Source: an uncultured Desulfovibrio sp. (GTDB lineage: Bacteria > Desulfobacterota > Desulfovibrionia > Desulfovibrionales > Desulfovibrionaceae). From it: a stretch of 52,203 bases of DNA. The stretch is taken from contig NZ_CALUWS010000018.1 of assembly GCF_944324525.1 (NCBI RefSeq), forward strand, positions 1 to 52,203, given 5' to 3'. The position numbers and the translations under genes were made by a program. This document shows, in pieces, positions 5,283 to 49,409 of the stretch (position 1 is the stretch's first letter; each line of letters opens with the position of its first letter). The notes below the pieces were generated by a model, which worked only from the letters and a program-made list of their open reading frames with translations, had not been told where the DNA came from and searched no databases.

Positions 5283-5404
5283 GGAGCATTTTCCGTTTGC
5301 GCCGTTTTCGCGCCGCAAACCATAACCTGTCACATCGCGGGAAAAACGCGTTTTTTCCGCTCGCCGTGAGTCGGGTTGCGCTGTGCCGCCGCCTCGCGTT
5401 TGTC
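5283..5404 (+). repeat. Dispersed four-hairpin repeat R1, copy A
   Basis: Starts GGAGCATTTTCCGTTTG and runs through the hairpin cores GCGGGAAAAACGCG/TTTTTTCCGC and GCGCTGTGCCGCCGCC, ending at about CCTCGCGTTT. The fourth (right-end) hairpin found in other copies is missing. It lies seven bases after the glycosyltransferase stop. The rest of the 5277-6012 gap holds a terminator, repeat R2a and a partial R1 copy; I see no gene in it. Confidence 0.75.
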
Positions 5405-5496
5405 CATTCCAGCGGCACGGGACGCTTGAACAAACCGTCCGGCACTCCACCCGGCTCGCTGTTGCCGTTTCGTTGTCTGTTCGTGTACGGGCAGGC

Positions 5497-5535
5497 AAAA
5501 AAGGAGGGAGTCTGCGCGAAGCAGGCTCCCTCCTT
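5497..5535 (-). terminator. Rho-independent terminator (minus strand)
   Basis: AAGGAGGGAG (5501-5510) pairs perfectly with CTCCCTCCTT (5526-5535), with CTGC/GCAG pairing inside. On the minus strand the stem is followed by a T-tract (complement of the A-run at 5497-5502). It would stop minus-strand transcription coming from the hlyD-like gene. Confidence 0.75.
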
Positions 5536-5681
5536 GCATGGACGCTTCCCATCAGGCGTTACGCCTCTGTTCCTCCATCACCCCGCAGGCCGCCTTGCAA
5601 AAGCCCACCACGGGGCAGCGACTGACCTTCCTTCGGGCTGTTCTCGCTCCGACCAGGGCCTGTTAACATATTTGCTGCTCG

Positions 5682-5845
5682 TTTGGGGGAAGGGGAACCC
5701 CTCGCTCTGCTGTCGATGTCCGTAAGGCTCCTTTGTCGCCTAACGGACACGGCCCTTTGGGCCGCCTTTCGGTCGCCGCCGGCGCGGGAGGGGTTCCCCT
5801 TCCCCCAAGCCCCCATCCCTTCCCCAGCGCGCTTTTGCCATGGGA
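5682..5845. repeat. G-run/C-run inverted repeat R2, copy a
   Basis: A perfect 21-bp inverted repeat has arms at 5683-5703 (TTGGGGGAAGGGG then AACCCCTC) and 5788-5808, separated by about 85 bases that contain smaller hairpins. After the right arm comes GCGCGCTTTT-x-CCATGGGA, a tail also seen in copy c near 47430. The interior word GTCGATGTCCGTAAGGCTCC (5712-5731) recurs inverted at 8263-8282. Confidence 0.7.
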
Positions 5846-5951
5846 AGAGTCGAAACACGAGGCAAGCCCGCCCCAAAAGGCACATGGGGCATGCACAGCT
5901 TACTTTTGCTTATCCATTGAAATTGTTTACAAAATTTGTGTAACAGCCCCT

Positions 5952-6015
5952 GAAACATTTTTCCTTTGAAAAGGCGATATGTGAGGCGGCGCTGTGCCGC
6001 CGCCTCACGGCTCTA
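5952..6015 (-). repeat. Partial R1 repeat, copy G
   Basis: On the minus strand this begins TAGAGC, then carries the GC-rich core hairpin (TGAGGCGGCG/CGCCGCCTCA) and a degenerate right-end hairpin CCTTTTCAAAGG. It corresponds to the right half of the full element. Its TAGAGC end supplies the TAG stop codon of the hlyD-like gene (6013-6015). Confidence 0.6.
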
Positions 6016-7224
6016 AAGCCCCGTGAAGCCCAGCAGGTTGCGGGTGCGGATATCGCAGTTCAGTCGTGCCCCGGCGGACGCCGCCTGTGCCAGCGCCGCG
6101 CCGTCGTCAAGGGAAATGCGCACGGCCACAAGCGAGGCGGAACCGCCGTCGCCCGTACCGCCGTTCGTGCCGGGAAGGGTCATCATCTGCGGGGGATAGA
6201 CCTCTTCCACCTTGCCCTTCCAGACCGTCCCCGCCGTCGAGCGGGGCGCGGCGGAAGCCGTGGCGCCCTGGGCAAGGGTGATGCGGACAGCCTGCCCGGC
6301 GCTGATCCCTTCGGCCTCGTCGGCCGGATAGTAGGCCATGACCCACCAGGCGGCCGAGTCATCGGGCGCGATGAGCAGCACGGGATTGCCCGGCTGCGGG
6401 GTCTGCCCGGCGCTCTGCAGGACCTGCGTCACGGTCCCGCTTACCGGCGCGTAAAGATTCTCATCCGGCGTCGGCAGCTGGGCCGGCTGACTGGCCCGGA
6501 CAGGCGGCTGTCCCTGCCGGGTGCGGGCAAGTTGCACCTCGGTACGGATGCGCTGCAATTCCTGATCAAGCGCCGCCCGCGCCCGGCTGGCCTTCTCGTA
6601 GGCCTCGCGGGCCTGCTCCATCCGCGTGCGCGCCGCCGCTTCCGCCTGACGCGCCCGCTCATAGGCAGCCTTGCCCTGATAGGGCTGGATGCCGCGCAAG
6701 GCTATCTGCGCCTGCACATGCGCCGTGACGCTACGGTCCCTTTCCTCAAGGCTCACGGCCTCCTCATTGCGCGCCGTGGCCAAACGGGTGACCATATCCA
6801 GCTCGGCTTCCTGCGCCTGCTGCATGCGCTGCGCCGCCTCCTGCAGGCCGGGCGCAAGACCGGCCAGTTCCTGGCTGGCGCGGGCAAGCTGGCGCGCATA
6901 GGCGCTCACATCGAGCCGGGCCACCACCTGGTTGGCGTCCACATGCATGCCGGGCTGCGCCATGACCTGACGCAGGGGCGCGCTGTATTCCGTCACGACG
7001 GGAACCATGTTGGCGTCCAGCACGGCCCAGCGGCTTTCCCGCCCGCCGTCGGAAAGCCACCAGAGCGCCAGCACCAGCAGCAGGGCGGCCAGCACCACCG
7101 TCAAAGGCAACCAGCGCAACCATTTACGGCAGCGCCCCGGACGTCCGCTCTCCCCCGTTCCCGGCCGCGGCGGCTCCTGGGGAGCCTCGCCCGACGGCAT
7201 TTCCAGATACATCGGTTCGGACAT
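6013..7224 (-). CDS. HlyD-family periplasmic adaptor (membrane fusion protein)
   Basis: The 403-residue protein has a short proline-rich cytoplasmic N terminus, one membrane segment at about 39-57, a split lipoyl/barrel-sandwich domain (APLRQVMAQPGMHVDANQVVARLD, resumed at NLYAPVSGTVTQVLQSAGQ) and a long Ala/Gln/Arg-rich coiled coil between them at about 95-250. This is the layout of membrane fusion proteins that bridge an inner-membrane pump and an outer-membrane channel. The start at 7224 has GGGAGG five bases upstream and is preferred over ATG 7257. No pump or TolC gene is adjacent, so the partner is unknown. The stop codon lies in the end of a repeat (copy G). Confidence 0.85.
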   Translation of the reverse strand: MSEPMYLEMPSGEAPQEPPRPGTGESGRPGRCRKWLRWLPLTVVLAALLLVLALWWLSDGGRESRWAVLDANMVPVVTEYSAPLRQVMAQPGMHVDANQVVARLDVSAYARQLARASQELAGLAPGLQEAAQRMQQAQEAELDMVTRLATARNEEAVSLEERDRSVTAHVQAQIALRGIQPYQGKAAYERARQAEAAARTRMEQAREAYEKASRARAALDQELQRIRTEVQLARTRQGQPPVRASQPAQLPTPDENLYAPVSGTVTQVLQSAGQTPQPGNPVLLIAPDDSAAWWVMAYYPADEAEGISAGQAVRITLAQGATASAAPRSTAGTVWKGKVEEVYPPQMMTLPGTNGGTGDGGSASLVAVRISLDDGAALAQAASAGARLNCDIRTRNLLGFTGL

Positions 7225-7384
7225 GCAACCTCCCGTCATCGGCTGACGAACATTCATGATGAGGACACAGGGCTTTCCGGCCCGGGCGTCCTTTCGTTGC
7301 CTTCACTTTACAACAGGCACAAGGCTGCTTACAAGAAGCCTTTCCCTGCCGACCCGGCCAAAATTTTTTTCTGGGAGATATTCC

Positions 7385-8098
7385 ATGCCTGCACGTTTCG
7401 CCGCACTGCTGTGCTGTGCATTCCTGCTGGCGGGCTGCGGAGCCCGTACGGTAGCCGTCATCGACGACAAGGGCTTTGCGGAGATGAGCCGCCGCATGCC
7501 GGACGAGATGCGCGCCCGCAAACTGCTCACGCCGGAAGGCGACTACTATTCCCGTCCCGCCGCCTCCCGGCCGTACGGAGATATCCTCTACGCCACCCTG
7601 TCGCCGGACTTCCTCTTCGACGATACCGGCGGGCACGTCTACCTTGGCGAGACCTTCCGGGCCACGCGCACGCCCTCCAGTCGGGCAAGCCTCCGTCAGA
7701 ACGGCTTTACGCTCCGCCACCCCACCCAGACCGTCAGCGTCTCCATGCTGGGGGAACTGGACTGGGACGACAACGGCACGGACGAATGGCTCGTCTCCTG
7801 CCGGGTGGAGCCCCTGCGCGGCTCGCGCGTGCGCACCTACTATCTGCTGGTGCCGCCGCCGTCCCGCAAGGGACAGCCCCTCAAGGCCAGCGTGGCCGCG
7901 CTGTACGAATGCTACGGACTGGCCTGCACCATGTACGTCAATCAGGCGCTCGTGCTGCGCGGCGAGGGCAACGACAGCAGCGAGCCCGCCACCCCGGTGC
8001 AGGATTCCGTCCCGGGCCTGCAGCAGGTCACGGAACCGCCCGCAGCCGGAAAAAACGGCGCCGCCACTCCCGGCGGACTGGAAGAACACAGCCTGTAA
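7385..8098 (+). CDS. Predicted lipoprotein of unknown function
   Basis: The 237-residue protein starts with a lipoprotein signal peptide ending in the lipobox LAGC at residues 15-18, so Cys18 would be lipidated and the protein exported and membrane-anchored. The start at 7385 is supported by GGGAG seven bases upstream; longer in-frame starts would bury the signal peptide. The body holds DWDDNGTDEW and two further Cys (ECYGLACTMY) that might form a disulfide. No known domain is recognised. It is divergent from the hlyD-like gene, about 160 bases apart, so a shared regulatory region is possible. Confidence 0.75.
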   Translation: MPARFAALLCCAFLLAGCGARTVAVIDDKGFAEMSRRMPDEMRARKLLTPEGDYYSRPAASRPYGDILYATLSPDFLFDDTGGHVYLGETFRATRTPSSRASLRQNGFTLRHPTQTVSVSMLGELDWDDNGTDEWLVSCRVEPLRGSRVRTYYLLVPPPSRKGQPLKASVAALYECYGLACTMYVNQALVLRGEGNDSSEPATPVQDSVPGLQQVTEPPAAGKNGAATPGGLEEHSL

Positions 8099-8106
8099 GG
8101 GCCAGT

Positions 8107-8227
8107 TTAGAGCATTTTATACGGCTTGGTGGTTCGCGGGAAAAACACAGTTTTTCCGTTCACGGTGGGCCGGACGGCGCTGTGCCCCCGCCTCGCGTTT
8201 TGCCTTTTCAAAGGCAAATTGCTCTAA
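8107..8227 (+). repeat. Dispersed four-hairpin repeat R1, copy B
   Basis: A 121-bp element bounded by perfect 8-bp terminal inverted repeats, TTAGAGCA (8107-8114) and TGCTCTAA (8220-8227). Inside are GCGGGAAAAAC/GTTTTTCCG, GGCGCTGTGCC and TTTGCCTTTTCAAAGGCAAA. This is the copy with the cleanest ends. It lies 8 bases after the lipoprotein stop. Confidence 0.8.
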
Positions 8228-8254
8228 GCAGCAGACAGTGTTAGAAGGCCCCTA

Positions 8255-8310
8255 GCGATGCAGGAGCCTTACGGACATCGACGACGGATCAACGGGGGAG
8301 GCTCCCCCCG
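8255..8310 (-). repeat. R2-related remnant and probable terminator
   Basis: GGAGCCTTACGGACATCGAC (8263-8282) is the exact reverse complement of a word inside R2 copy a. It is followed by the hairpin CGGGGG (8293-8298)/CCCCCG (8305-8310). On the minus strand the stem lies 22 bases after the StiP gene stop and may end the Ter transcript, although no clear T-run follows. Confidence 0.5.
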
Positions 8311-8331
8311 AAAGCGTGATACGCCCACGTC

Positions 8332-9423
8332 TTACCGCACTTTGCGGATGATGGTCACGGCCTTGTACGGCAGGATGGCGTCGCCGCCTTCCTCCACGGG
8401 GATGCCGTGCCGTGCCGCCAGCCCCAGCAGCAGGCGCACATCGGGGTCCGCGCGCCGGCTGACGAGCACATGTTCCGGCACCCGGCGCAAGAGCGCCCGC
8501 GTCGCTTCCGCTATGCCGGGTTTGATCCGGTTGGCGGCGTCGATGGCGAACCGCCGCATGAGACGCGCCACCAGTTCCCCGGACTGCCGCCGCAGGGCGG
8601 CGTACTGCGCGGGATCGGCAACGGCGGGGTGGCGCTGCGCCTCGGCCAGCATGTCGTCCGTCCAGAGCGCGGAGACCGTATCGACGAATGCGCGCGTCTG
8701 ATCCACATGCCGCAGGGACTCCCAGAGCATGCATTTATGCAGGCCGTCATCCGCCCACAGGGAACGGGAGATGAGCCCGGCCACCGGCGCGCCCAGCAGG
8801 CTGAAGGGGATCAGCCAGTCCTCGCAGGAGGCGGCCAGCCAGCTTGTGCCGCAGAGGTCGGCCAGCACCGTCAGACGCGGCGGCCGCTGCGCATAACCGG
8901 GGCGTGTGGCCAGCGTCCGCGTCAGCTCGCCGCTGATGGCCCCCTTGCCGGTCCAGCCGTCCACGAAATAGATGTTTTCCGGGGGGCATTCCCGCTCCAC
9001 CAGTGAGAGCGCGGCATGATCCAGCCCCCTGTCCCGGATGATGCTGACGCCGAAATGCCGGACGTCCCTCCCCATGCGTGTCAGGGCCCGCCGCAGCAAC
9101 ACGCCCAGCGGACAGCCGGCACGCACCAGACTGACCAGCCCGATGGGCCCGCCCGCGTCCGGCTGGGCGGCGATGGCGGCAGCGAGGGCGAGCGTCTCGC
9201 GTGCCAGCCGCGCCTTGCCGTCCTGCAGGGCTTGCGCGTAGATGGCCATATGTTCCGGCGTGGGGACGCTCTCTTCGCTGAGCATCTCCGAGTAGTGGCG
9301 CTGGCCGCTCTGGAGCCAGACTTCCTTTTCCGCCACCGGCGTCAGCTCGATAACGGTCTTGCGCAGCAGAAAGGTGATGTCCTCCGGCGCGTAGGAGCCG
9401 GAAAAGAACTGTCCTGCCTCCAT
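8332..9423 (-). CDS. StiP family protein with C-terminal PELOTA domain (Ter island)
   Basis: The 363-residue protein matches the StiP family found in tellurite-resistance (Ter) operons, annotated either as a cysteine protease or as a phosphoribosyltransferase-like domain. Visible candidate catalytic parts are LVRAGCPLGVLLRRAL, HFGVSIIRDRGLDHAAL and a PRPP-loop-like FVDGWTGKGAI. The last 60 residues (VLVSRRADPDVRLL to LPYKAVTIIRK) look like a PELOTA RNA-binding domain. ATG 9423 overlaps the TGA of the HAD gene (TGATG), so translation is coupled, and GGAGG lies just upstream. Family knowledge places it in a predicted nucleoside-like metabolite pathway; the reaction is not established here. Confidence 0.75.
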   Translation of the reverse strand: MEAGQFFSGSYAPEDITFLLRKTVIELTPVAEKEVWLQSGQRHYSEMLSEESVPTPEHMAIYAQALQDGKARLARETLALAAAIAAQPDAGGPIGLVSLVRAGCPLGVLLRRALTRMGRDVRHFGVSIIRDRGLDHAALSLVERECPPENIYFVDGWTGKGAISGELTRTLATRPGYAQRPPRLTVLADLCGTSWLAASCEDWLIPFSLLGAPVAGLISRSLWADDGLHKCMLWESLRHVDQTRAFVDTVSALWTDDMLAEAQRHPAVADPAQYAALRRQSGELVARLMRRFAIDAANRIKPGIAEATRALLRRVPEHVLVSRRADPDVRLLLGLAARHGIPVEEGGDAILPYKAVTIIRKVR

Positions 9424-10226
9424 CACCGTCCCTCCTCCCCCACGATACGCCCCACTGCGCCCGCCAGCTGACTGCGGCGGGGCATGCCCCACCAGTCGCA
9501 CAGGGCAAGAAAGGGCATGTCGCTCAGGCTGTCGCCAAGCCCGACGGTGGGCCGCGCGCCGCCTTCCGCATCCAGCGTGCCCAGCAGATGGCGGAGAGCG
9601 GCGGCCTTGTCGATGCCGCGCGGCAGCAGGCTGATGTTGTTGTCGTTGCTGGACAGGACGAAACGCGAGAGGTCCAGCCCGGAAAGAACGTCATCCACGA
9701 CGGCGTACAGTTCCGCCAGACGGCTGTTGTCCCGATGCTTCATGACGAGGTAGATGTCCGTGCCGTATTCCTGATTGATGCGGGCAAAGGCATCGTAGCC
9801 CCGCCGGGCGAAATAGTCCGTGCAGCACTGGGCGATATGGCGCAGCTCGTCTTGCAGCGGCCGCACGATGCCGAGGATGCGCTCCCGCCAGACGGCATCC
9901 TCGCTGCCGTCCGGGGTGAGGATGACGGCCCCGTGGGTGGCGATCTTCCAGGAACGGAAGGCGATGCGCACCCGTCCCAGCTCCTCGGTCCCGCGGCCTG
10001 TCACGGGGATGAGGCAGGCGTGCTCATTGAGCCAGTCCAGAAAATTCCGCTGCGTCTCGCTCATGAAGGAGCTGGGCCTGCCCTGCCTGTCCACGGCCGC
10101 CACGACGGCCCGCTCCCGCTGGGCCTCGCTCATCTTGCGCGCCGTCTGGAACAGGGTGTCGTCCAGATCGAGAAAGAAGAGCGGTCCCCTCCCCAGGGAC
10201 ACGAACGCGGACTCAGGCATGGTCAT
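9423..10226 (-). CDS. HAD-family phosphatase of the Ter island
   Basis: The 267-residue protein has the HAD motifs: DLDDT at residues 20-24 (nucleophile and acid/base Asp), VTGR as motif II, and GLGDSLSDMPF at about 229-239 as motif IV. The cap between motifs II and III resembles Cof/sucrose-phosphatase types. It would hydrolyse a small phosphorylated metabolite in the cytoplasm. It overlaps the PRTase gene by 14 bases at its start and the StiP gene by one base at its end, so the three form a tightly coupled unit. In Ter operons such a phosphatase is predicted to act with the PRTase. Confidence 0.8.
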   Translation of the reverse strand: MTMPESAFVSLGRGPLFFLDLDDTLFQTARKMSEAQRERAVVAAVDRQGRPSSFMSETQRNFLDWLNEHACLIPVTGRGTEELGRVRIAFRSWKIATHGAVILTPDGSEDAVWRERILGIVRPLQDELRHIAQCCTDYFARRGYDAFARINQEYGTDIYLVMKHRDNSRLAELYAVVDDVLSGLDLSRFVLSSNDNNISLLPRGIDKAAALRHLLGTLDAEGGARPTVGLGDSLSDMPFLALCDWWGMPRRSQLAGAVGRIVGEEGR

Positions 10227-11316
10227 ACTCCAGCACGACCGCCTTGCGCAGATGGCGCAGCAACTCCCTGTCGAGGGTCCCGGCTCCCGTCTCGCAGCAG
10301 AGATAGATGCTGTCGTAGGCCTCGGGATCGACGTTGTACAGGTAGTTGCTGATGCCGAAACCGTAATTGTCGCCGTGCTCCAGTCGGTGACGGATGGCCA
10401 GCCCCGGTTTGATGGGCGAACGCGTCGTCGCGCCGAAGCGCACGTCGGCTCCCTCCCGCTCCAGCCGCTCGGCCAGCAGGAAGGGCGGCCAGACGAATTC
10501 GCCGGTGCCCAGCACGAGCACGCGCCTTCCCGGCTGCTCCCGTACTTCCGGCCACGGCCGCAGGTCGGGCTCCAGCATGCCGAAGCGGCCCCAGTCCTGC
10601 CGCCGGCTCACCGGCTCGCCGCCCGCGCCCTGCTCCACCCGCGCGGGGAAGGGCGTCGGCGGATAGCCGGGCGTCGGCGTCCAGTGCCACGTTCCCTGCA
10701 GCAGGCTCACCACTTCGCCGGGCCAGGGCAGGGCCGCCTTGGCCGCCGCCGGGCTCCAGTCCACGATGACCACGCGGGTCACGCGCCGCAACGGCAGGCC
10801 CGCGCCGTGCAGGGCCTCGCAAAGATGCAGGAAGGTGTCTCCCGTCGTCATCTCGTCGTCGACGGCCACGAGATGCAAGGGCTTCTCCCCGAGGGTGACG
10901 CCGCGCGGCCGGTAGAGGATATGCCGCATGGCATGGCTGTGGGCTTCGTCGAATTCCGCCAGACGGGGCGCGGCAAAGGCATGGCGGGTGGAGGCCAGAT
11001 AGCAGCTGTCCGGACACGTTTCCCGGCAGCGGCGAAATACCCCGGCCCCAAGCCCCACAGCGGTCTCCGCCATGCCGACGAAGAGAGTCTGCATGTCCGG
11101 CGGCAGCGTGATGCCGTCGGCAAGGCGCTGCTGCACGTCCCGCATGACGGACGGCGCCACGGGGATATGCCGCCCCAGCACCTTGCTGACGAAAAGAAAG
11201 ACCCGGCGAGGGTTCTGCCGTTCGGCAAAGTCGAACAGCGCCTCCGCCGGCAGGTCGGCCCGGGCGATCTCCAGTTCGAGCCGTCCGGCGGCGTAGGTCT
11301 GCACGAGTTTCTCCAT
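10213..11316 (-). CDS. Phosphoribosyltransferase with C-terminal TRSP domain (Ter island)
   Basis: The 367-residue protein contains a PRPP-binding loop LVAVDDEMTTGDT at about 150-160, the hallmark of type I phosphoribosyltransferases. A C-terminal segment from about residue 260 (RRVLVLGTGEFVWPPFLLAERL, FGATTRSPI) matches the TRSP domain that accompanies these enzymes in Ter operons. The start at 11316 is supported by AAGGAG seven bases upstream. It would form an N-ribosidic or similar bond with PRPP. The base or acceptor is unknown. It heads the coupled PRTase-HAD-StiP trio. Confidence 0.8.
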   Translation of the reverse strand: MEKLVQTYAAGRLELEIARADLPAEALFDFAERQNPRRVFLFVSKVLGRHIPVAPSVMRDVQQRLADGITLPPDMQTLFVGMAETAVGLGAGVFRRCRETCPDSCYLASTRHAFAAPRLAEFDEAHSHAMRHILYRPRGVTLGEKPLHLVAVDDEMTTGDTFLHLCEALHGAGLPLRRVTRVVIVDWSPAAAKAALPWPGEVVSLLQGTWHWTPTPGYPPTPFPARVEQGAGGEPVSRRQDWGRFGMLEPDLRPWPEVREQPGRRVLVLGTGEFVWPPFLLAERLEREGADVRFGATTRSPIKPGLAIRHRLEHGDNYGFGISNYLYNVDPEAYDSIYLCCETGAGTLDRELLRHLRKAVVLEYDHA

Positions 11317-11473
11317 CCCCTTGCTCCTTCCGGCAGCCGCTTGCCGCCCCGCCCTTCTTCCGCCGCGGGGCATGCCTCCGCTCCGGGCAGGGCCGCAGGC
11401 CCCGCCATGCGGCGGCCTGTGCCGGCGTGCCGGGAACGGCCGACGTGCGCCGCTCCCGGCCCGGCCCAAACAG

Positions 11474-12049
11474 TTAGACGTTGACGCCGTAGTTGCGGGC
11501 AAGGGGGCCAAGCCCGCCATCATAGCCCTGCCCCACGGCCCGGAACTTCCATTCGTTGTTGTGCCGGTAGACTTCGCCAAAGATGATGGCCGTATTGGTG
11601 CTGGCATCTTCGCTCAGGTCGAAGCGGGCCACCTCGCGGCCGGTCTTGCGGTTGACGATGCGGATGAAGGCGTTGGACACCATGCCGAAGTTCTGGCGGC
11701 GCTGGTCGGCCTCATGGATGGTCACCGTGAAGGCCAGTTTGCTCACGTCGGCGGGGATGCGCGACAGTTCGACGTTGATGGCTTCGTCATCGCCGTCGCC
11801 GACGCCGGTGCGGTTGTCGCCGGTGTGCTCCACGGCGCCGCAGGCGGACTTGAGGTTGTTGTAGAAGATGAAATCGCTGTCGCTGCGGACCTTGCCCGAG
11901 GCGTTCAGGAGGAAGCAGGAGGCGTCAAGGTCGAAATCGTTGCCGTCGGTGCTGCGGGCGTCCCAGCCCAGGCCGACCATGATGGACTCGATACCCGGTT
12001 CTTCCTTGGAAAGCGAAACGTTGCCGCCTTTGACGAGAGATACGGACAT
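11474..12049 (-). CDS. terD: TerD-family calcium-binding stress protein
   Basis: The 191-residue protein is a full-length, single TerD domain. It starts [19 protein letters not shown], followed by the acidic metal-binding stretches [11 protein letters not shown] (about 38-48) and GDGDDE, and ends [25 protein letters not shown]. TerD proteins bind calcium and belong to tellurite, phage and oxidative stress responses. AGGAG lies seven bases before the start and the TerZ gene ends 16 bases upstream, so they are one operon. It is about three-quarters identical by eye to the paralogue at 14222, so a local duplication is likely. Confidence 0.93.
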
Positions 12050-12065
12050 GGGAGTGCTCCTGTCG

Positions 12066-12644: not shown

Positions 12645-12647
12645 GTG

Positions 12648-13821: not shown

Positions 13822-13970
13822 CGTCATATCCGGGGCATGGCGTCACGCCGGTACGGGGAAGATGCCGCCGCCCTTCTGGACGCCCCCTTCCGCACCGTCG
13901 CGGCGGGAAAGTCGTAACGTCCCAATGCGGCAGGCCTGCCCGCTGCCGGAGCAACACCTGTCAACACACA

Positions 13971-14112
13971 AGCGTTTTGCCGTTGAAAACGGCAAAACGC
14001 GAGGCGGCGGCACAGCGCCGCCCGGCCAAACGTAAGCGGAAAAACCGCGTTTTTCCGCGAAACGACCGGCCGTATGGTTTGGAGCGCACAGCGTTCCAAA
14101 CGGAAAATGCTC
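13971..14112 (-). repeat. Dispersed four-hairpin repeat R1, copy C
   Basis: This is the best-conserved full copy. On the minus strand it begins GAGCATTTTCCGTTTGGA and contains four stems: CGTTTGGAACGC with GCGCTCCAAAC, CGCGGAAAAACGC with GGTTTTTCCGC, GGCGGCGCTGTGCCGCCGCC, and GCGTTTTGCCG with CGGCAAAACGC. It lies between terC and the terD paralogue. Confidence 0.8.
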
Positions 14113-14173
14113 GTGGACAGCGCCTGCAAGAGACGCTGGCCACGCAGGGCAAAAAACCCTTTTTCCTGTCTGC

Positions 14174-15373: not shown

Positions 15374-15551
15374 AGGATGCTCCTTCTTTACTAATGTTGC
15401 CGCGCCGCCCTACGGACGGACGGAAATCATCCCCGGCACATCGTCCGCCGGGGGAAGCGGCCCGGGCAAAGCCCTGCCGCGCCTCCCGCCCGTCGCCCCT
15501 TGCGGCGCACATGACGTCTCATCGCGGGCCTGTAAACACTATGTGCTTTGG

Positions 15552-15694
15552 GAGCGTTTTGCCTTTGGAAAAGGCGAAACGCGAGGCGGCGGCACAGCGC
15601 CGCCCGGCCAAAACCAAGCGGAAAAACCGCGTTTTCCGCGAAATGGCAGGCCGTATGGTTTGGAGCGCCAAGCGTTTCAAACCAACCATACTCT
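15552..15694 (-). repeat. Dispersed four-hairpin repeat R1, copy D
   Basis: On the plus strand it begins GAGCGTTTTGCCTTTGG and contains AAGGCGAAACGC, GAGGCGGCGGCACAGCGCC, GCGGAAAAACCGCGTTTTCC and GCCGTATGGTTTGG, ending near ACCATACTCT. It has the same order of stems as copy C. It occupies the 15374-15799 gap between terB and the CitE-like gene; nothing else is seen there. Confidence 0.8.
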
Positions 15695-15799
15695 ATTTGG
15701 ATACGGGGAGCGCCTTTTCCGCAAGCATGCGGGGCAAGCCTTTTCCCCTCTGGAACTACCGTAAAGTTTACATCAAGCGCCTGACGCGCAAAGTCCTTC

Positions 15800-30888: not shown

Positions 30889-30889
30889 T

Positions 30890-33391: not shown

Positions 33392-33430
33392 CCCCGCATG
33401 GAGGATGCCGCCGCGAGGCGCGCTCCCCGA

Positions 33431-33573
33431 GAACATTTTACCTTCGCCATAGGCAAAATGCGAGGCGGCGGCACAGCGCCGTTCGGCCCAACCCCAGCGA
33501 AAAGCCGCGCTTCTTCCGCGTAAGACCAGACCGTATGATTTGAAACGCCGGGTGTTTCAAACGAAAAATTTTC
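33431..33573 (-). repeat. Dispersed four-hairpin repeat R1, copy E
   Basis: On the plus strand it begins GAACATTTTACC and carries GGCAAAATGCGAGGCGGCGG, CACAGCGCC, then GTTTCAAACGAAAA at the end. It is more diverged than copies C and D: the central A/T-rich stem has substitutions (GAAAAGCCGCGCTTCTTCC). It lies between the MCP and the alcohol dehydrogenase genes; only this repeat, the palindrome and a terminator are seen in 33254-33709. Confidence 0.7.
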
Positions 33574-33626
33574 GACGGGGGACGGGCGCTTTGGGCAAGG
33601 GGGCGAAGATGGGTGGGGAGGCTGGC

Positions 33627-41593: not shown

Positions 41594-41615
41594 TCGGCAC
41601 GCACACTGACGACAA

Positions 41616-41641: not shown

Positions 41642-41705
41642 TCCCATGGGGCTGCCGCCGGACTGGCCCCGTCTTTTTATTCCCCTTCCCTCGCGAGACC
41701 TCGCC

Positions 41706-42815
41706 ATGCCCATGCCGCCGCGCCGTTTCCCGTCCCCGTCCCTGTGCCGTACTTTGTCCCGGCCCCTGTCCCGCCGCCTGCCGGGCACGCTCGCCTGTCT
41801 GGCGCTCTGTCTTTTTCTGTGTCTGTCCTCGCTGCCTGTCCACGCGGCGCAGCCCGCCACGGCAGGCACGGTCTGTCTGCTGCTGGAAAGTCTGACGCCC
41901 GACAAGGGCTGGCACGATCAGCTCCGGGCCGGCCTTGCCCGCGCCGAAAAAGATTTCGGCATCACGGCCCGGGTGGTCGCCGCCCCGGCGGACAGCGATC
42001 AGCAGGCCATTTTCCGAGAGGAGGCCGCCCGGTCCGACCTTGTGCTCGTTGCCGACGACAGTCTGCACGAAGTGCTCCGCAACAATGCAGGCAACTTCCG
42101 CAAGGTGCATTTCGGCTGCATAGATACCGGGGTCCGGGCCGCCAATATCATGTCCGTCACCTTTGCCGACGAGCAGGCGGCCTTTCTGGCCGGGGCGGCT
42201 GCCGCCATGCTGACGGTCTCGGACAGCCGGGGCATGAACCCGCAGAAGACCCTGGGCTGGCTCTCCGGCAAGGAGACCGGCCCCATCGTCACCATGCTCA
42301 ACGGCTTTCTGGAAGGCGCCCGGCTGATCGACCCGGAGATACGCATCGTCCACCGCAGCCTTGACTCTTTCGAGGACACGCAGCGGGCACAGGCCGGCTG
42401 TCGCGAACTGCTCGCGGAAGGCGCGGATATCGTGGTGCTGGCGGCAGGCAGCGCGGGACTTGCCGCGCTGGACGTGCTGGCCGGCCAGCAGGCGCTGGCC
42501 ATAGGAATGGCCGAAGATCAGGACAGGCTGCGCCCCGGCCAGGTGCTCACCTCCATCCTCAAGCAGGGAGACCGCGCCGTCTACGAGATCGTCTCCAGCC
42601 ATGTGCGGGGGAATTTCCGCGGCGGGGATATCGTCACCTACACGCTGGCGGACAAGGGGGTCGGCATCACCGACCTTCGCAGCTTCGCCGCAGGGGAAGG
42701 GAACAAGCTGCCGCCTCGCCTTGCGAGCCGCCTGACGGAACTGCGCCGTGAGCTCGAGCGCCAGGCCATCCGTCTGCCTTCGCTGCGCCAGGGAACGCTG
42801 TGCAATTGCCGCTGA
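41706..42815 (+). CDS. BMP-family (PnrA/Med-like) substrate-binding protein, orphan
   Basis: The 369-residue protein has a signal peptide (hydrophobic LACLALCLFLCLSSLPVHA) and a periplasmic binding protein fold of the basic membrane protein family: DKGWHDQLRAGLARAE, SVTFADEQAAFLAGAAA, GWLSGKETGPI. Relatives bind nucleosides or are used as sensors. The start could be ATG 41706 or 41712, or slightly upstream; the ribosome site is poor. No permease or ATPase follows, so it either serves a distant transporter or has a regulatory role. It lies between tpa and ald. Confidence 0.8.
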   Translation: MPMPPRRFPSPSLCRTLSRPLSRRLPGTLACLALCLFLCLSSLPVHAAQPATAGTVCLLLESLTPDKGWHDQLRAGLARAEKDFGITARVVAAPADSDQQAIFREEAARSDLVLVADDSLHEVLRNNAGNFRKVHFGCIDTGVRAANIMSVTFADEQAAFLAGAAAAMLTVSDSRGMNPQKTLGWLSGKETGPIVTMLNGFLEGARLIDPEIRIVHRSLDSFEDTQRAQAGCRELLAEGADIVVLAAGSAGLAALDVLAGQQALAIGMAEDQDRLRPGQVLTSILKQGDRAVYEIVSSHVRGNFRGGDIVTYTLADKGVGITDLRSFAAGEGNKLPPRLASRLTELRRELERQAIRLPSLRQGTLCNCR

Positions 42816-43209
42816 GGTCGACGCTTGCCGCTCTGCCGGGGGATCGGCAAGCGCCGACCTCAGCCTGACGGATGCCGTCTCCGGCCAGTTCGTGAAAGAA
42901 ATTTTTTTTTCGTGAAAACCCCGTGCAATCCTCTTGCTGTTGCAACGGAAAAGGGCTAGGGTCTTTTCGCGAGCTGCGGAGCGGACCTGTTTGTCTGTTC
43001 AATGATGCAGAAATGAGCACGTGCCCCGATGAGACACGAAGGCCCAACCGCATCGGCAGGCGCCGCAAGCCTTGGAGCAATACCCTACCTGAAAGATCCG
43101 GCCGTTTCGGCTGATCAGCACGGTTGCCCCAAGTCCGTTTGCGAAAGGGTATGTCCGTCATGTACGGAATTTTTCATCATTCACTTGCAGCCTTTCAGGA
43201 GGGCTTCAA
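42816..43209 (+). other. Long structured leader upstream of ald, candidate cis-regulatory RNA
   Basis: Almost 400 bases without a gene. Possible stems are CCGATG (43026-43031)/CATCGG (43051-43056), AGGC/GCCT around 43058-43072, ATACCC (43080-43085)/GGGTAT (43147-43152), and a short terminator-like hairpin TCCGT-CATGT-ACGGA followed by ATTTTT (43154-43174), 30 bases before the ald ribosome site. I could not match it to a known riboswitch. Confidence 0.4.
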
Positions 43210-44328
43210 ATGCTTATCGGCGTTACTAAAGAAATCAAGGCCAATGAACATCGCGTGGGTATCACCCCTGCCGGCGTCAAAGCTCTGAAAGACCACGGCC
43301 ACGACGTCATGATCGAAGTGGGCGCCGGTCTCGGCAGCCGCATCTCCGACGACGAATACAAAGCCGCTGGCGCCACCATGCTGCCCGTGGCCGACGTGTG
43401 GGCCAAGGCCGACATGATCATGAAGGTCAAGGAGCCTCTGCAGAGCGAATACAAGTACTTCCGTGAAGGCCTGCTGCTCTTCACCTACCTGCACCTGGCC
43501 GCCGACAAGCCCCAGACCGACGCCCTGCTGAACTCCGGCGTGGTGGGCCTTGCCTACGAAACCGTGCAGCCCGAAGACCGCACCCTGCCCCTGCTGGCCC
43601 CCATGTCCGAAGTGGCCGGCCGCATGTCCATCCAGGTGGGCGCCAACATCCTGACCAAGCATGCCGGCGGTTGCGGCGTGCTGCTGGGTGGCGTGCCTGG
43701 CGTGCAGCGCGGTAAAGTCGTGATCGTGGGCGGCGGTATCGTGGGTACCAACGCTGCCAAGATGGCCATCGGTCTCGGCGCCGAAGTGACCATCCTCGAC
43801 AACAACCTGAACCGTCTGCGTTACCTCGACGACATCTTCGGCGCTCGCGTGCAGACCATGGCTTCCAACAGCCACAACATCGCCGCCGCCGTGAAGGACG
43901 CCGACCTCGTGATCGGTTCCGTGCTCATCCCCGGCGCCAAGTGCCCGCAGCTGGTGACCGAAGAAATGATCAAGACCATGCGCCCCGGTTCCGCCGTGGT
44001 GGACGTGGCCATTGACCAGGGCGGCGCTGTGGAAACCACCGCCGGCCATCCGACCACCCACGAAAACCCGACCTTCGTGAAGCACGACGTCGTCCACTAC
44101 TCCGTGGCCAACATCCCCGGCGCTGTGCCGATCGCCTCCACCTACGCCCTGACCAACGCCACCCTGCCCTTCGCTCTGCAGCTGGCCGACAAGGGCTGGA
44201 AGAAGGCTTGCGCCGACAACATCGCGCTGGCTCGCGGCCTGAACACCGTCAACGGCAAATGCACCTTCAAGGGTGTGGCCGACGCCTTCGGTCTGCCCTA
44301 CGTGCCCGCCGCCGACCTGCTGAAGTAA
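43210..44328 (+). CDS. ald: Alanine dehydrogenase
   Basis: The 372-residue NAD-dependent enzyme has the substrate residues Lys74 (MKVKEPL) and His95 (YLHLA), the NAD loop [17 protein letters not shown] and the catalytic Asp in VAIDQGG. It oxidatively deaminates alanine to pyruvate, ammonia and NADH. Next to tpa it closes the amino-acceptor cycle of taurine use. AGGAGG precedes the start, and codon use is strongly biased as in tpa, which suggests high expression. Confidence 0.97.
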
Positions 44329-44389
44329 GCATTCGGCACGCACTGTCCCGCCTGCTCGCAGGCAACGGACGGTATGACGGCAACGTCAA

Positions 44390-44422
44390 GCGCCCTCTGT
44401 GCAAACGGAGGGCGCTTTTTTT
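44390..44422 (+). terminator. Rho-independent terminator of ald
   Basis: GCGCCCTC (44390-44397) pairs with GAGGGCGC (44408-44415), followed by seven T, 62 bases after the stop. The remaining bases to 44694 show no gene and no clear signal beyond GGAGAG before the next start. Confidence 0.9.
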
Positions 44423-44694
44423 ACCTGCGGACGGGCAGTCTCCCCCCGCCGGGATAGCGATCCCGTCTTTCCGCCTGGACAGCCTGCCGCCTCTTTCCTC
44501 CTCAGCGCATACCGTACTTTTGCCTCCTGCGGCATTTACCGCTTTTTCAGGGCATTCGTACACTTGCGGCCCGCGTCAGGACAGCGTATGCTGAAAGAAT
44601 ACGGCGGCACGGTACGCACTGTCCGCCAGAAGCATCACCCCGGGGACATCCCCCACCATCCTGCCTGCCGACAACATCTTTTGGAGAGACGTGT

Positions 44695-45753
44695 ATGCTG
44701 AAAAAACTTCTTTGTATGGCTCTTGCCGCCTTCATGCTGCTGAGCACGGGCATCCGTCCGGCATCGGCCGCCGAGCTTGTGGAAGTTCCCACGGCCTGGC
44801 TTGACGAGCACGAGACGTTCCTCATGTGGTATGCGGTGGAAAAGGGCTGGGACGTTGAGGCCGGGCTGAAGATCAAGATGCAGCTTTTCAGCTCGGGCGC
44901 GGATATCCTGAACGCGCTTCCTTCCGGCAAATGGGTGTATGCCGGCATGGGGGCCGTGCCGGCTATGCTGGGCAACCTGCGCTACGGCACGTCCATCATC
45001 GCCCTGGGCAATGACGAATCCCGCTGCAATGCGGTGCTGGTGCGGCCTGACAGCCCCATCGCCAAAGTCAAGGGCTGGAACAAGGAGCATCCCGCCGTTC
45101 TGGGCAGCCCCGCGACGGTGCGCGGCAAGACCTTTCTGGTCACCACGGTCTCCTCGGCCCACTATGCCCTCAGCGCCTGGCTGGAGACCCTTGGGCTGAC
45201 CGACAGCGACATCGCCATCAAGAACATGGATCAGGCGCAGGCCCTTGCCGCCTTTGAAAACAACATCGGCGACGGCGTGGGCCTCTGGGCCCCGCACATG
45301 TTCGTGGCCATGGACAAGGGAGCCGTTCTCGCCGCCGACATGAAGACGCTGGGCAAGGGCAATCCCATCGTGCTGGTGGCCGACACGCGCTATGCGGAAA
45401 AAAATCCTGACGTCACGGCGCGTTTCCTGAGCGTCTATCTGCGCGCCGTCAAGATGTTCAAGGAAACCACTCCGGAGATGCTTGTCGGCGAGTACCAGCG
45501 TTTCCACCGCGAATTCGTGGGCAAGGATTATGACGCGACCCTGGCGCTCAAGGACCTGCAGTACCATCCCGTCTACGATCTGCAACAGCAGCTCGCCCTC
45601 TTTGACGACAGCAAGGGGCCGAGTCAGGTGCAGCAGTGGCAGGCCGACATCGCCGCGTATTTCAGCAGCATTGGCCGCATCACGGCGGATGAAGCCAAGA
45701 AGGTCGCCGACGGCAAGTACGCGACCAATGCCTATCTCAAGCAGATAAAGTAG
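44695..45753 (+). CDS. TauA/SsuA/NMT1-type ABC substrate-binding protein, orphan
   Basis: The 352-residue protein has a signal peptide cleaved near residue 25 (RPASA-AELV) and a type II periplasmic binding fold of the TauA/SsuA/ThiY/NMT1 group (HETFLMWYAVEKGWDVEAGL, ALPSGKWVYAGMGAVPAM, VRGKTFLVTTVSSAHYALSAWL). Relatives bind sulfonates, nitrate or thiamine precursors. Given the neighbouring tpa and ald, taurine or another sulfonate is a plausible ligand, but this is inference. No permease or ATPase gene follows; a terminator does. Confidence 0.85.
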   Translation: MLKKLLCMALAAFMLLSTGIRPASAAELVEVPTAWLDEHETFLMWYAVEKGWDVEAGLKIKMQLFSSGADILNALPSGKWVYAGMGAVPAMLGNLRYGTSIIALGNDESRCNAVLVRPDSPIAKVKGWNKEHPAVLGSPATVRGKTFLVTTVSSAHYALSAWLETLGLTDSDIAIKNMDQAQALAAFENNIGDGVGLWAPHMFVAMDKGAVLAADMKTLGKGNPIVLVADTRYAEKNPDVTARFLSVYLRAVKMFKETTPEMLVGEYQRFHREFVGKDYDATLALKDLQYHPVYDLQQQLALFDDSKGPSQVQQWQADIAAYFSSIGRITADEAKKVADGKYATNAYLKQIK

Positions 45754-45808
45754 CGGACATGCCGCAACGTCTGCCCCAGCCTGCATGACAGGCCGGACAC
45801 GCCATCAT

Positions 45809-45849
45809 GAGGCCCGGCCGGGTATCCCCCCGGTCAGGGCCTCTTTCAT
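45809..45849 (+). terminator. Terminator after the TauA-like gene
   Basis: GAGGCCC (45809-45815) and GGGCCTC (45837-45843) enclose a second CCGG pairing and are followed by TTTCATT. From 45850 to 46151 I see no gene; the MFS promoter should lie there, but no good match to consensus is visible. Confidence 0.65.
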
Positions 45850-46151
45850 TGCCCTCCTCCCGCTGAGGCCGTCCCGCCGCATGCCGGCCCAAGCGCAACG
45901 CCACCGCCTGCACCTAAACCGTGTGGCATGCCGTACCGACGCGGATGCAAAAAAAATGGCGGAAGCACCAGCCAGCGTACGGCCGGTTTTCTTCCCGCCA
46001 GAGGAAGGAAAAGGTGGTGCTGGCCGCCTGGACACGCAGATCAAGACTGTGCAGACAGTATATCGGTCAGCTCTTGCATCCTGAAGAGCTTCAGTGCAGA
46101 CTGCTTCTGCCTTACGGCCTTCCCCCTGTAACTCTTACCTGGATCCTTGCC

Positions 46152-47330
46152 ATGCCTTCTCCTGCCGCCGGTCATTTCTCTCCACGCCGCTACTACCGCA
46201 CCGCGCTCATGGCCTTCTTTTTTGTCATGGGCCTCGTCTTCGCCTCATGGGCCATCCGCATCCCCGACATCAAGGCACGCCTCTCGCTGGGGGATGCCGC
46301 CCTGGGCAGCATCCTGCTGGCCGCGCCCCTGGGCGAGATGCTGGCCATCGCGCCCACCGCCTGGCTGCTTGGGCGTATCGGCAGCCGTCACGGCATCGAC
46401 TGCGCCCTGCTGCTCATGCCCGTCTGTCTTGTGCTGCTGGGCCTCGCCCCGTCGCCCGCGCTGCTGTTTGCCGCACTGCTCTGCTTCGGCTTTGCCAACA
46501 ATATGCTCAATATCGCCCTCAACACGCAGGCGGTCGATGTGGAGATCCTCTACAGCCGCAGCATCATGGCCACCTTTCACGGCATGTGGAGCCTTGGCGG
46601 CCTTGTGGGAGGTCTCCTGGGAGCCGCCATCGCCCCGCAGGGCATCGCGCCGCTGCCGCACTTCTGCGCCGTCCTCTGTCTGGTGCTGCTCACGCTGTTC
46701 AGCCTGCGGCACTGGACGCTGCCGCGTGCCGTACGCATCGGTGGACGCCAGAAAGCGAAAACTTCCGGGCGTTTCCGCATGGACGCCTACCTGCTGGTAC
46801 TGGGATTCATCGCCCTGGGCAGCATGGCGACGGAGGGCGCCATGTACGACTGGAGTTCGGTCTATTTTGCCGATGTCGTTCAGCCCGGCGAGGCCCTCGT
46901 CCGCGTAGGCTATGTGGTCTGCATGGCCTGCATGGTGCTGGGCCGCCTTACCGCGGACGGCCTGGTCAATCGTTTCGGCGTTGCGCTGGTGCTGCGTCTG
47001 AGCGGGCTTTCCATCGCAGCGGGGCTGAGTCTGGCTGTTCTCTTCCCCTCTCTTGTCCCGGCCACCTTGGGCCTTGGGCTTGTGGGTTACGGCATGGCCT
47101 CGGTCGTGCCGCTTTGCTACAGTCTCGCAGGCAAATCCACCAGAGTCCCCGCGCGCGTAGGCATCTCCCTTGTGTCCAGCGTGAGCTTTTTGGGCTTCCT
47201 GGGCTGCCCGCCACTCATCGGCTTCCTCTCCCACGCCGCAGGCAGTCTGCGCTGGGCTTTCTGCCCCATCATCGCGCTGGGCCTGTCCATTGCGCTGCTG
47301 GTCCCTGTGCTGCGTCGCCTGCGGGCCTGA
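46152..47330 (+). CDS. Major facilitator superfamily transporter (YbjJ-like)
   Basis: The 392-residue protein has about twelve membrane segments in two halves with a cytoplasmic loop near 200-215 (RIGGRQKAKTSGRF). It begins with RTALMAFFFVMGLVFASWAIRIPDIKARLSLGDAALG, the N-terminal signature of YbjJ-type transporters in outline. The substrate is unknown; relatives are annotated as sugar or drug carriers. I chose ATG 46152 because the first membrane helix follows directly; the longer frame has no homology. Confidence 0.82.
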   Translation: MPSPAAGHFSPRRYYRTALMAFFFVMGLVFASWAIRIPDIKARLSLGDAALGSILLAAPLGEMLAIAPTAWLLGRIGSRHGIDCALLLMPVCLVLLGLAPSPALLFAALLCFGFANNMLNIALNTQAVDVEILYSRSIMATFHGMWSLGGLVGGLLGAAIAPQGIAPLPHFCAVLCLVLLTLFSLRHWTLPRAVRIGGRQKAKTSGRFRMDAYLLVLGFIALGSMATEGAMYDWSSVYFADVVQPGEALVRVGYVVCMACMVLGRLTADGLVNRFGVALVLRLSGLSIAAGLSLAVLFPSLVPATLGLGLVGYGMASVVPLCYSLAGKSTRVPARVGISLVSSVSFLGFLGCPPLIGFLSHAAGSLRWAFCPIIALGLSIALLVPVLRRLRA

Positions 47331-47352
47331 CATATGCCGGGCGTGCCTCTTT

Positions 47353-47440
47353 TTTGAGGGAGAGGGGGACCCCGCGCCTCGCGCGGGCGGGGTCCCCCTC
47401 CCCCTCAAACTCCCCTACCCCTCCCCCGCGCGCTTTCTCC
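47353..47440. repeat. G-run/C-run inverted repeat R2, copy c
   Basis: Arms of 23 bases at 47353-47375 and 47387-47409 (GAGGGAGAGGGGGACCCCGC and complement) differ by one position. The right flank CCCCGCGCGCTTTCTCCGTGGGA repeats the tail of copy a. It begins 22 bases after the MFS stop and may double as its terminator. Confidence 0.7.
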
Positions 47441-47560
47441 GTGGGACATCGCTGAACTTTCATGCACATTTACTTACCCTTCCTTCAGGTTTCAGCTGAC
47501 AAAAGCCTAATTTGAAATTTATTTTCTGAAATCTTAGGGGGTTAAGTACTTTTTAATGAT

Positions 47561-47579
47561 AATAGTAATTATTACTATT
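47561..47579. promoter_or_regulatory. PerR/Fur-like operator upstream of katA
   Basis: AATAGTAATTATTACTATT is a perfect 9-1-9 palindrome; its core TAGTAATTATTACTA fits the 7-1-7 form of PerR boxes (TTATAAT-x-ATTATAA) with changes at two positions per arm. It lies 100 bases before katA in a strongly AT-rich island (about 47500-47600), where the promoter must be. Peroxide- or iron-responsive control of catalase is the natural reading. Confidence 0.6.
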
Positions 47580-47678
47580 TACTTTTCACCTGTTCTTTGC
47601 CATGTTGACTTCAGCAACGGCGCAACAGGCCGTTAGTTCGCTTCCCCTTCAACGATCAACCCGCAAGGAGAGCACATC

Positions 47679-49136
47679 ATGGCAGACAACAAGGATCTTC
47701 TCACCACCAACGCCGGCGCGCCCGTCCCCAACAACAATCATGCCCTCACCGCCGGACCGCGCGGGCCCATGCTCATGCAGGACGTCTGGTTTCAGGAGAA
47801 GCTTGCCCATTTCGACCGCGAAGTCATCCCCGAGCGCCGCATGCACGCCAAGGGTTCCGGGGCCTACGGCACCTTTACGGTCACGCACGACGTGACCGCC
47901 TACACCCGGGCTTCGCTCTTTGCCGAGATCGGCAAGAAGACCGATGTTTTTGTCCGCTTCTCCACGGTGGCGGGCGAGCGCGGCGCGGCGGATGCCGAGC
48001 GTGACATCCGCGGTTTTGCCGTCAAATTTTACACGGATCAGGGCAACTGGGACATGGTGGGCAACAATACGCCGGTGTTCTTCCTGCGCGATCCGCTGAA
48101 ATTCCCGGATCTGAACCATGTGGTGAAGCGCAATCCGCGCACCAACATGCACAGCGCCAAGGACAACTGGGATTTCTGGACGCTGCTCCCCGAAGCGCTG
48201 CACCAGATCACCGTGGTCATGAGCGATCGCGGCATTCCGGCCACTTACCGTCACATGCACGGTTTCGGCAGTCATACCTACAGCCTGATCAATGCGGAAA
48301 ACAAGCGTTTCTGGGTCAAGTTCCACTTCAAGAGCCAGCAGGGCATCAAGAACCTGACCGACGCCGAAGCGCAGGAACTCATCGGCCGCGACCGCGACAG
48401 CCATCAGCGCGACCTCTATGAGCACATCGAAAAGGGCGACTATCCCCGCTGGACGCTCTATTTCCAGGTCATGCCCGAAGAGGACGCCGAAAAGCTGCCC
48501 TACCATCCCTTTGACCTGACCAAGGTCTGGTACCACTCCGACTATCCGCTCATCGAGGTGGGCGTGCTGGAACTGAACCGCAACCCGGAAAACTACTTTG
48601 CCGAAGTGGAGCAGGCCGCCTTCAATCCCGCCAACCTCGTTCCCGGTATCGGCGTGTCGCCTGACAAGATGCTGCAAGGGCGTCTGTTCTCCTACGGGGA
48701 CGCCCAGCGTTACCGTCTCGGCGTCAATCATCACTTGATCCCGGTCAACCGGCCCCGCTGCCCCTTCCACAGCTTCCATCGCGACGGCCAGATGCGCGTG
48801 GACGGCAACCACGGCAGCTATACGAGCTATGAGCCCAACAGCGAAGGCGCCTGGAAGGAACAGCCGGACTTCACGGAACCGCCCCTGAAGATCAGCGGCG
48901 ATGCGGCCCGCTGGGACTACCCCTGCGATGATGCCGACTACTTCGAGCAGCCCGGCCGCCTCTTCCGGCTCATGACGCCCGAGCAGCAGGAAGCTCTCTT
49001 CGGCAACACGGCCCGCGCCCTTGGTGACGCCCCCAAGGAGATCAAGCTGCGCCACATCCGCAACTGCGCCAAGGCGGACCCGGCCTACGGCGCGGGCGTG
49101 GCGCGAGCCTGCGGCATCGCTGAAAGCGAGATCTAA
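47679..49136 (+). CDS. katA: Catalase, monofunctional heme type (clade 3)
   Basis: The 485-residue small-subunit catalase has the active-site His56 in [10 protein letters not shown], Asn near 129 in GNNTPVFF and the proximal heme Tyr in [14 protein letters not shown] (about 336-349). It dismutates hydrogen peroxide in the cytoplasm. The length is normal for clade 3 and all key residues are present. No signal peptide. The ribosome site AAGGAG is close to the start. Confidence 0.97.
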
Positions 49137-49200
49137 GCACAACCTCCCGGCGGCCCGGCCAGTCTGAGGCCGCCGCACTCCCCCCCACCCTCTCACAAAA

Positions 49201-49234
49201 GCAGGGGCTGCCGTGACGCCACGGCAGCCCCTGC
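49201..49234. terminator. Bidirectional terminator between katA and trpA
   Basis: A perfect 15-bp stem (GCAGGGGCTGCCGTG and complement) with a four-base loop, followed by CTTCTTTTCC on the plus strand and by TTTTGTG on the minus strand. It lies 64 bases after katA. Confidence 0.8.
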
Positions 49235-49257
49235 GCTTCTTTTCCGTATCCAGGATC

Positions 49258-49409
49258 TAAATCATTTTCAGTGCGAAACGCTTCGCGTTTCACACCATAC
49301 GGCCCGTCGTTTCGCGGAAAAAATGCGGTTTTTTCCGTTTGGTTTCGGCCGGGCGGCGGCACTGTGCCGCCGCCTCGCGGCCCTCCTTTTTCAAAGGCGA
49401 AACGCTCTA
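49258..49409 (+). repeat. Dispersed four-hairpin repeat R1, copy F
   Basis: The longest copy, about 152 bp: AAATCATTTTCAGTGCG, GAAACGCTTCGCGTTTC, CGCGGAAAAAATGCGG with TTTTTTCCG, GGCGGCGGCACTGTGCCGCC and CCTTTTTCAAAGGCGAAACG. It ends CGCTCTA, whose last three bases (49407-49409) are the TAG stop codon of trpA read on the minus strand. Confidence 0.8.

Follow-up and report, generated by a model that had tools for sequence, protein, structure and literature searches.

R1 repeats in the window

The window, the whole 52,203-nt stretch of DNA to which positions refer unless a locus is named, holds six copies and one partial copy of R1, a single family of non-coding repeats of about 148 bp. Its own genome is designated G000, and a sister genome, also of a gut Desulfovibrio, is designated G072. 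The consensus obtained by aligning 28 full-length own-genome copies, four of them from the window, is 148 bp long with TA at both termini. A covariance model built on 28 own-genome copies, with copies C, D, E and F as four of its rows, recovered every copy named in the first-pass annotation. The seven dispersed copies and the fixed order of four stems described there were thus confirmed, as were the places of the copies, while their exact boundaries shifted slightly (for example to 5282-5429 for copy A and 8108-8226 for copy B).

Copy A (5282..5429, plus strand; 82.9 bits) has a degenerate right end (TGGAGC...CTTGA). Copy B (8108..8226, plus strand; 95.3 bits for a match spanning 8082-8226) is a short form of 119 bp with TA on either side, in which hairpin (stem) I is absent and the inverted repeat is TTAGAGCA/TGCTCTAA. 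The remaining copies are full length: C (13968..14114, minus strand; 165.1 bits) with decayed terminal dinucleotides, D (15550..15695, minus strand; 157.9 bits) with TAGAGT...GCTCCC termini, E (33429..33575, minus strand; 125.0 bits) with decayed ends, and F (49258..49409, plus strand; 146.8 bits) with TAAATC...GCTCTA termini. The scores of these four model rows are partly built in; copies A and B and the partial copy stand outside the model. Copies A, C, D, E and F measure 146-152 bp, and at 119-152 bp all six window copies are too short for a transposase gene.

The partial copy covers the hairpin III/IV region (5951..6028, plus strand; 32.4 bits, E 4.2e-6), with an opposite-strand match at 5951-6058 (minus strand; 31.9 bits), and lies beside a second repeat, R2. 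This long G-rich palindromic region (5652-5991) matches several places in two related genomes, G022 and G020. R2 adjoins R1 at several loci, and one R1 copy (L043) sits inside a G-rich palindromic repeat (loci L043, L100, L007 and L026). At two loci of G017 (L071 and L086), two R1-like copies lie within the same G-rich palindromic repeat, forming a composite repeat.

Abundance, host range and genomic context

An HMM search at E 1e-5 of 430,949 own-genome bases gave 63 copies, or 0.146 per kb and 1.9% of the sampled sequence; 655,300 bases of G072 gave 177 copies, or 0.27 per kb and 3.6%. Extrapolation from these stretches, mostly on long contigs, gives about 425 copies in the own genome (2.91 Mb) and about 890 in G072 (about 3.3 Mb). 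The covariance model yielded at least 152 own-genome matches, with 150 of 4009 first-look candidates scored, and copy B as a DNA query yielded at least 42, with 40 of 257 candidates scored; the search for further copies proposed in the first-pass annotation thus reveals a family far bigger than its window representatives.

At E 1e-3 the covariance model matched 18 of 61 genomes, of which 17 belong to the 37 genomes of the genus (own genome included) and one to the 24 outside it. The sole match outside the genus (G047, E 4.5e-4) does not look like R1, and the matches in three genomes of the genus are weak (G006, 1.5e-4; G021, 4.8e-5; G029, 1.4e-6). Among the matches listed for a 28-base pattern, the named genomes include gut Desulfovibrio assemblies: Candidatus D. 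intestinigallinarum, Candidatus D. gallistercoris, Candidatus D. intestinavium and uncultured Desulfovibrio.

Phages may carry R1 between hosts, because two full copies (L218:1583-1729 and 5984-6127) lie on an IMG/VR contig that also has genes for a phage tape measure and baseplate. Copies also occur on a 184-kb contig binned as Mailhella (L136), representing either transfer or a binning error. Head-to-tail arrays of R1 were seen at L128, L136, L168, L171, L117, L195 and L030, and the neighbors in L030 have one dinucleotide in common. Various contigs start or stop in R1 (C46, C65 and C85 of G000, and several contigs of relatives and metagenome bins), and R1 therefore probably breaks short-read assemblies. 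Isolated small hairpins, some 36-40 bp long and ending in TAGAGC...GCTCT-type sequences (L281:976-1012 and 2068-2104; flanks in L021, L069 and L092), may be smaller cousins of R1 that share its transposase.

R1 was at first described as always lying at gene ends or in gaps. It is mostly intergenic, although not always so: the mean coding overlap of full copies is 9% in G000 (51 copies) and 2% in G072 (147 copies), against about 85% and 82%, respectively, for random placement, all of these context figures being approximate owing to strand errors of our home-made gene caller (e.g. at 4847-5333 of the window). In G072, 42 R1 copies fall in convergent and 18 in divergent gaps, where gaps of at least 60 bp number 52 and 58, respectively. 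No convergent excess is seen in G000 (10 convergent and 14 divergent, with 49 gaps of either kind). An orientation preference relative to flanking tandem genes, suggested by a first G072 sample (27 opposite, 10 same), was rejected on the larger sample (42 opposite, 32 same, p 0.30).

Ends and target sites

The ends of R1 read TA-GAGCRTTTY…RAAAYGCTC-TA and contain terminal inverted repeats, TAGAGCATTTTCMGTTTGAAA on the left and TAGAGCRTTTYRCCTTTGAAA on the right (reversed). Exact GAGC/GCTC is present near the ends of 113 of the 234 full-length copies left after de-duplication; TA flanks both sides in 65 of these 113, and the flanking dinucleotides are identical in 75. Even among the 24 copies without TA on either side, the two dinucleotides are identical in 10, as compared with a mean of 2.1 and a maximum of 8 identical non-TA pairs when the 113 right-hand dinucleotides were shuffled 2000 times; these counts include possible tandem arrays.

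Comparison of the joined flanks of 229 copies with the sequences collected gave 136 junction-spanning rows. Ten pairs were read, and the other rows were judged from the table only, many of them being a locus against itself, i.e. tandem arrays. Two of the ten are clean pairs of filled and empty sites. The filled site L125 (BRZ_SQ bin37) and the empty site L148 (Candidatus D. intestinigallinarum) are 96% identical over 202 bp, with a single TA at the empty site, and comparison of L043 with L100, both from the own genome, shows AT duplicated at the filled site. In the pair L159/L092 the second site is empty, yet has TG in place of the TA of the filled site. L103/L092 was rejected, as it does not include an empty site, and the remaining six candidates align poorly or have indels at the junction. 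The flanking-dinucleotide counts and the two clean pairs show that R1 inserts with a 2-bp duplication and a preference for TA.

Conservation of the hairpin fold

Conservation of the fold between species was analyzed in an alignment of model matches (A2) comprising 30 sequences from 14 genomes. Its rows were picked by model score from a selection given 28 loci (L074 and L075 had no match at 1e-8) and fitted to the model structure; fitting and selection inflate pairing, and slid controls and free folds serve as counterweights. Pairing is kept in 95.2% of the A2 cells, against 73.6% in shuffles, and both-sided changes affect 175 cells, against 53.8 in shuffles. The covariation score is 0.471, against 0.036-0.077 with slid partners. 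The order of the hairpins is thus held across the 14 genomes while their stems change in step.

When 16 representatives drawn from 13 genomes were folded freely, 15 had z-scores between -4.1 and -11.1, the exception being a sequence from G025 (G025a, z -1.5) with a right end unlike that of R1. As judged by eye, 12 of the 16 minimum-energy folds show hairpins I to IV next to one another, and the representatives of G000, G008 and G023, as well as G025a, fold partly differently. Two architectures are seen: hairpin II lies either within an outer stem or, in G017 and G010, beside a separate hairpin that replaces that stem. An exact CGCGG occupies the hairpin II loop of 12 of the 16 representatives, and the copies of G002 are mosaics of hairpin types.

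A pattern for stem III, which selects one subfamily (the G000-type stem III is without such a mismatch), gave 17 matches. A pyrimidine-pyrimidine mismatch is retained in 15 of them (four in G034, nine in G002 and two in G017), and the remaining two, from G025, are apparently fortuitous. Inside the mismatch, the pairs come in three compensated versions, and full pairing of the inner four bases is seen in 10 of the 17.

Within a genome, divergence is almost as high at paired as at unpaired positions: 0.100 and 0.123, respectively, for 68 copies of G000, and 0.092 and 0.104 for 46 copies of G072. Single stem changes in G000 amount to 521 cells, of which 176 still pair; both-sided changes amount to 98 cells, of which 73 still pair, 46 of these in hairpin IV. 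Selection on pairing within a genome predicts that shared variants keep pairing more often than private ones, and found no support, as the difference is not significant in either G072 (16/39 shared vs 25/86 private, p 0.22) or G000 (6/14 vs 34/93, p 0.77). Because of these divergence values, the single changes and the comparison of shared with private variants, no maintenance of resident copies is visible.

The stem IV difference between copies C and D (GCCGTT/AACGGC against GCCTTT/AAAGGC), from which selection for structure had initially been suggested, is indeed present. The suggestion agrees with the covariation between species and finds no significant support in the variants within genomes. 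The pattern between species could stem either from selection acting on the lineage that moves or from mutation templated by the hairpins. As for the role of the fold, it would either join the ends of a short, stiff DNA or act as RNA.

An IS630 element with R1-like ends

Genes for IS5/IS427-type (PF13340) and IS630-type (PF13358) transposases were each searched in 38 genomes, and the ends were scanned at 17 PF13340 and 15 PF13358 loci. R1-like ends were found at 8 of the 15 IS630 loci (L239, L240, L241, L244, L251, L254, L255 and L258), the one at L255 being a nearby R1 copy. A clear pair of ends was found in the first scan at L240 and L241 only, and later also at L266 and L293.

The G072 element is intact and measures 993 bp including the TA at each end (L266:1486-2478). 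It contains one open frame of 326 codons, or 311 amino acids from the first Met, with a DD34E motif (spacing counted by eye). The 311-residue transposase clears the IS630 equivalog cut-off of 100 bits with a score of 193.2, and in the PDB its DDE part matches the Sleeping Beauty transposase (E-value 4.5e-8). Over its first 21 bases the element is identical to the right-hand terminus of the G072-type R1 consensus (blastn E 2.2e-7), and the right end of the element abuts an R1 copy. The related element of G022 is about 1 kb long and has two overlapping frames with HTH and DDE_3 domains, where a T/A run in the overlap could permit frameshifting. It is 90% identical to the G072 element in the DDE part and has 20 of the 21 end bases of R1. 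In G002, an IS end and an end of the G002 MITE have their first 17 nt in common. The left end of R1 has 5 mismatches to either IS end in 21 positions, and the body of R1 has no clear similarity to the IS past the end.

A search of 61 genus genomes recovered the IS630 transposase protein in 16, and neither in the own genome, where whole-draft gene searches were negative, nor in G020; both of these genomes are drafts. It is matched in 6 of 18 R1-bearing genomes of the genus (G002, G010, G022, G025, G034 and G072) and in 5 of 20 without R1-like matches (G001, G003, G009, G016 and G028), and presence of the gene was rejected as a discriminator. Since the gene does not track R1, the link between R1 and IS630 rests on the ends and the duplication. 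In 431 kb of own-genome sequence, a rough search for TAGAGC[AG] ends gave 13 facing pairs, binned by distances between 510 bp and 2.5 kb, a result that speaks neither for nor against an autonomous copy. The R1 family looks orphaned in the genome of the window.

In fully searched stretches, G072 has 20 matches of at least 161 bits over 274 kb, and G000 has 9 over 431 kb. Among the matches listed, with 150 candidates scored in each genome, those of G072 range from 189.5 to 161.2 bits, and 46 of those of the own genome reach at least 161 bits. Many decayed copies are also present in G072. For the two genomes compared, this fits more recent R1 activity where the IS is intact.

Probable mobilization of R1 and alternative explanations

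R1 is very probably a MITE that owes its movement to IS630-family (Tc1/mariner-type, DD34E) transposases of gut Desulfovibrio acting in trans, as judged from sequence comparison. The MITE-like reading already offered in the first-pass annotation gains support from the inverted ends, the 2-bp duplications, the filled and empty sites and the sister-species element with an identical 21-nt end, and R1 is present in high copy, mostly between genes. An IS630 transposase of this type would recognize the R1 ends of about 20 bp (GAGCRTTTY...) and move the element of about 148 bp into a dinucleotide, usually TA, which would be duplicated; the surviving insertions would mainly be those between genes. IS630 elements are known to be TA-specific, and some of the R1 duplications are non-TA, unlike what is expected for this family. 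The internal hairpins may have been kept for aiding mobility by folding the short DNA so that its ends meet, or alternatively for lowering the cost of R1 as RNA. DNA of the size of R1 is near or below one persistence length. A more specific proposal, which we regard as doubtful, is that mobility depends on the folded DNA shape and not on the ends alone: cruciform-forming hairpins would join the ends of the 148-bp DNA for the IS630 transposase, and selection would keep the shape while the stem sequences turn over as exchangeable modules.

Other transposases appear far less plausible as the source of mobility. An IS5/IS427-type (PF13340) partner is very unlikely: G000 contains two such genes, one of them with the end GAGCTGTTTC and CTAG/TA flanks, but the end similarity to R1 is merely GAGCNNTTTC, against 21 identical nucleotides for the IS630 element, and a single R1-like end was found at 3 of the 17 PF13340 loci (L228, L232 and L234) and a pair at none. 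This partner was rejected on the weak end similarity. IS427-type elements at L220, L222 and L237 have CTAG or TAG ends. Least probable of all is a REP/BIME-type element moved by a RAYT (Y1 transposase). R1 is palindromic, intergenic and in high copy, and one Y1_Tnp gene is present in G000. Inverted ends and 2-bp target duplications nevertheless distinguish R1 from REP/BIME elements, which are not known to have either, and the REP/BIME-like reading of the first-pass annotation was not upheld. In addition, Y1_Tnp was not found in R1-bearing G004, G007, G008, G017, G020 and G023, in a test of R1-bearing genomes other than G025, G029, G034 and G072. Presence of the Y1 gene was rejected as a discriminator, as it occurs in 8 of 14 genus genomes with R1-like matches and in 5 of 10 without.

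Two further explanations concern the hairpins. They might have been selected as RNA, serving as 3'-end stabilizers, terminators or RNase targets, roles that have been suggested for ERIC and Correia elements. The covariation across species, the fold energies well under those of shuffles in 15 of 16 representatives and the placement mostly between genes are consistent with this function, which we nonetheless consider unlikely, given the unbiased orientation relative to tandem genes in G072 and the stem changes of resident copies, mostly single and in the majority pair-breaking. Moreover, Rfam gave no match above the curated threshold in the window, and one R1 copy (L007:1480-1680) reached at best 18.6 bits against a threshold of 45. 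Thus, of the mobile structured RNA once considered for R1, the structure conserved between species stands and the known Rfam family does not. It is slightly easier to envisage, although still improbable, that the compensated stem changes are a mutational by-product of hairpin-templated correction and module recombination, with no selection for structure needed. DNA hairpins can template their own correction at quasi-palindromes, and such an origin would accommodate both the lack of a significant excess of pairing among shared variants within either genome and the mosaic hairpin types of G002. Template correction should, however, erase mismatches, and that in stem III persists in 15 of 17 matches.

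Mobilization by an IS630-family transposase offers a probable origin and mechanism for a repeat that constitutes 1.9% of the sequence sampled from one gut Desulfovibrio genome and 3.6% of that sampled from another. With hundreds of copies and a recognizable partner in related species, R1 allows a test of whether small transposons retain an internal fold, and for what reason.

Comparison with known bacterial repeats

No MITE, REP or IS630 element of this kind from Desulfovibrio was found in the open-licence PMC literature. Small dispersed repeats of cyanobacteria show compensatory changes; within the same open-licence scope, none was found by title. The systems closest to R1 are compared here on the basis of excerpts of the papers cited. 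Up to 711 copies of ERIC occur in one genome, and the main text of that review does not mention IS630 or Desulfo (PMC10969869). ERIC and Correia/NEMIS are small intergenic MITEs with TA at their ends and strong folds (PMC10969869, PMC2229807), features that R1 shares. In bacterial repeats other than CIR, the stem-loop is described as arising from the pairing of both ends (PMC2229807), and unlike in ERIC and Correia/NEMIS, the hairpins of R1 stand side by side. CIR of Caulobacter and Brucella resembles R1 in being intergenic with two separate hairpin arms, and is given in the same excerpt as lacking terminal inverted repeats (PMC2229807), whereas R1 has such repeats, a target duplication and an IS with a common end. 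BOX of the pneumococcus is modular, with ends resembling an IS and a variable number of boxB modules (PMC3049150). R1 is likewise modular with ends akin to an IS, but it is mostly fixed in module number and length and swaps hairpin sequences instead.

RUP of Streptococcus pneumoniae, with 108 copies of 107 bp, is thought to be moved by IS630-Spn1 at TA, and its ends resemble those of the IS630 element (PMC2229807); it is also predicted to be tightly folded (PMC3049150). R1 is, like RUP, a MITE with IS630-like ends and a TA target. Unlike RUP, it occurs in another host, is longer and, by extrapolation, more abundant, and has several separate hairpins kept by compensated change across species. 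R1 is thus best read as a new family of IS630 MITE, a kind that includes RUP, and is set apart by the unusual conservation of its multi-hairpin body.
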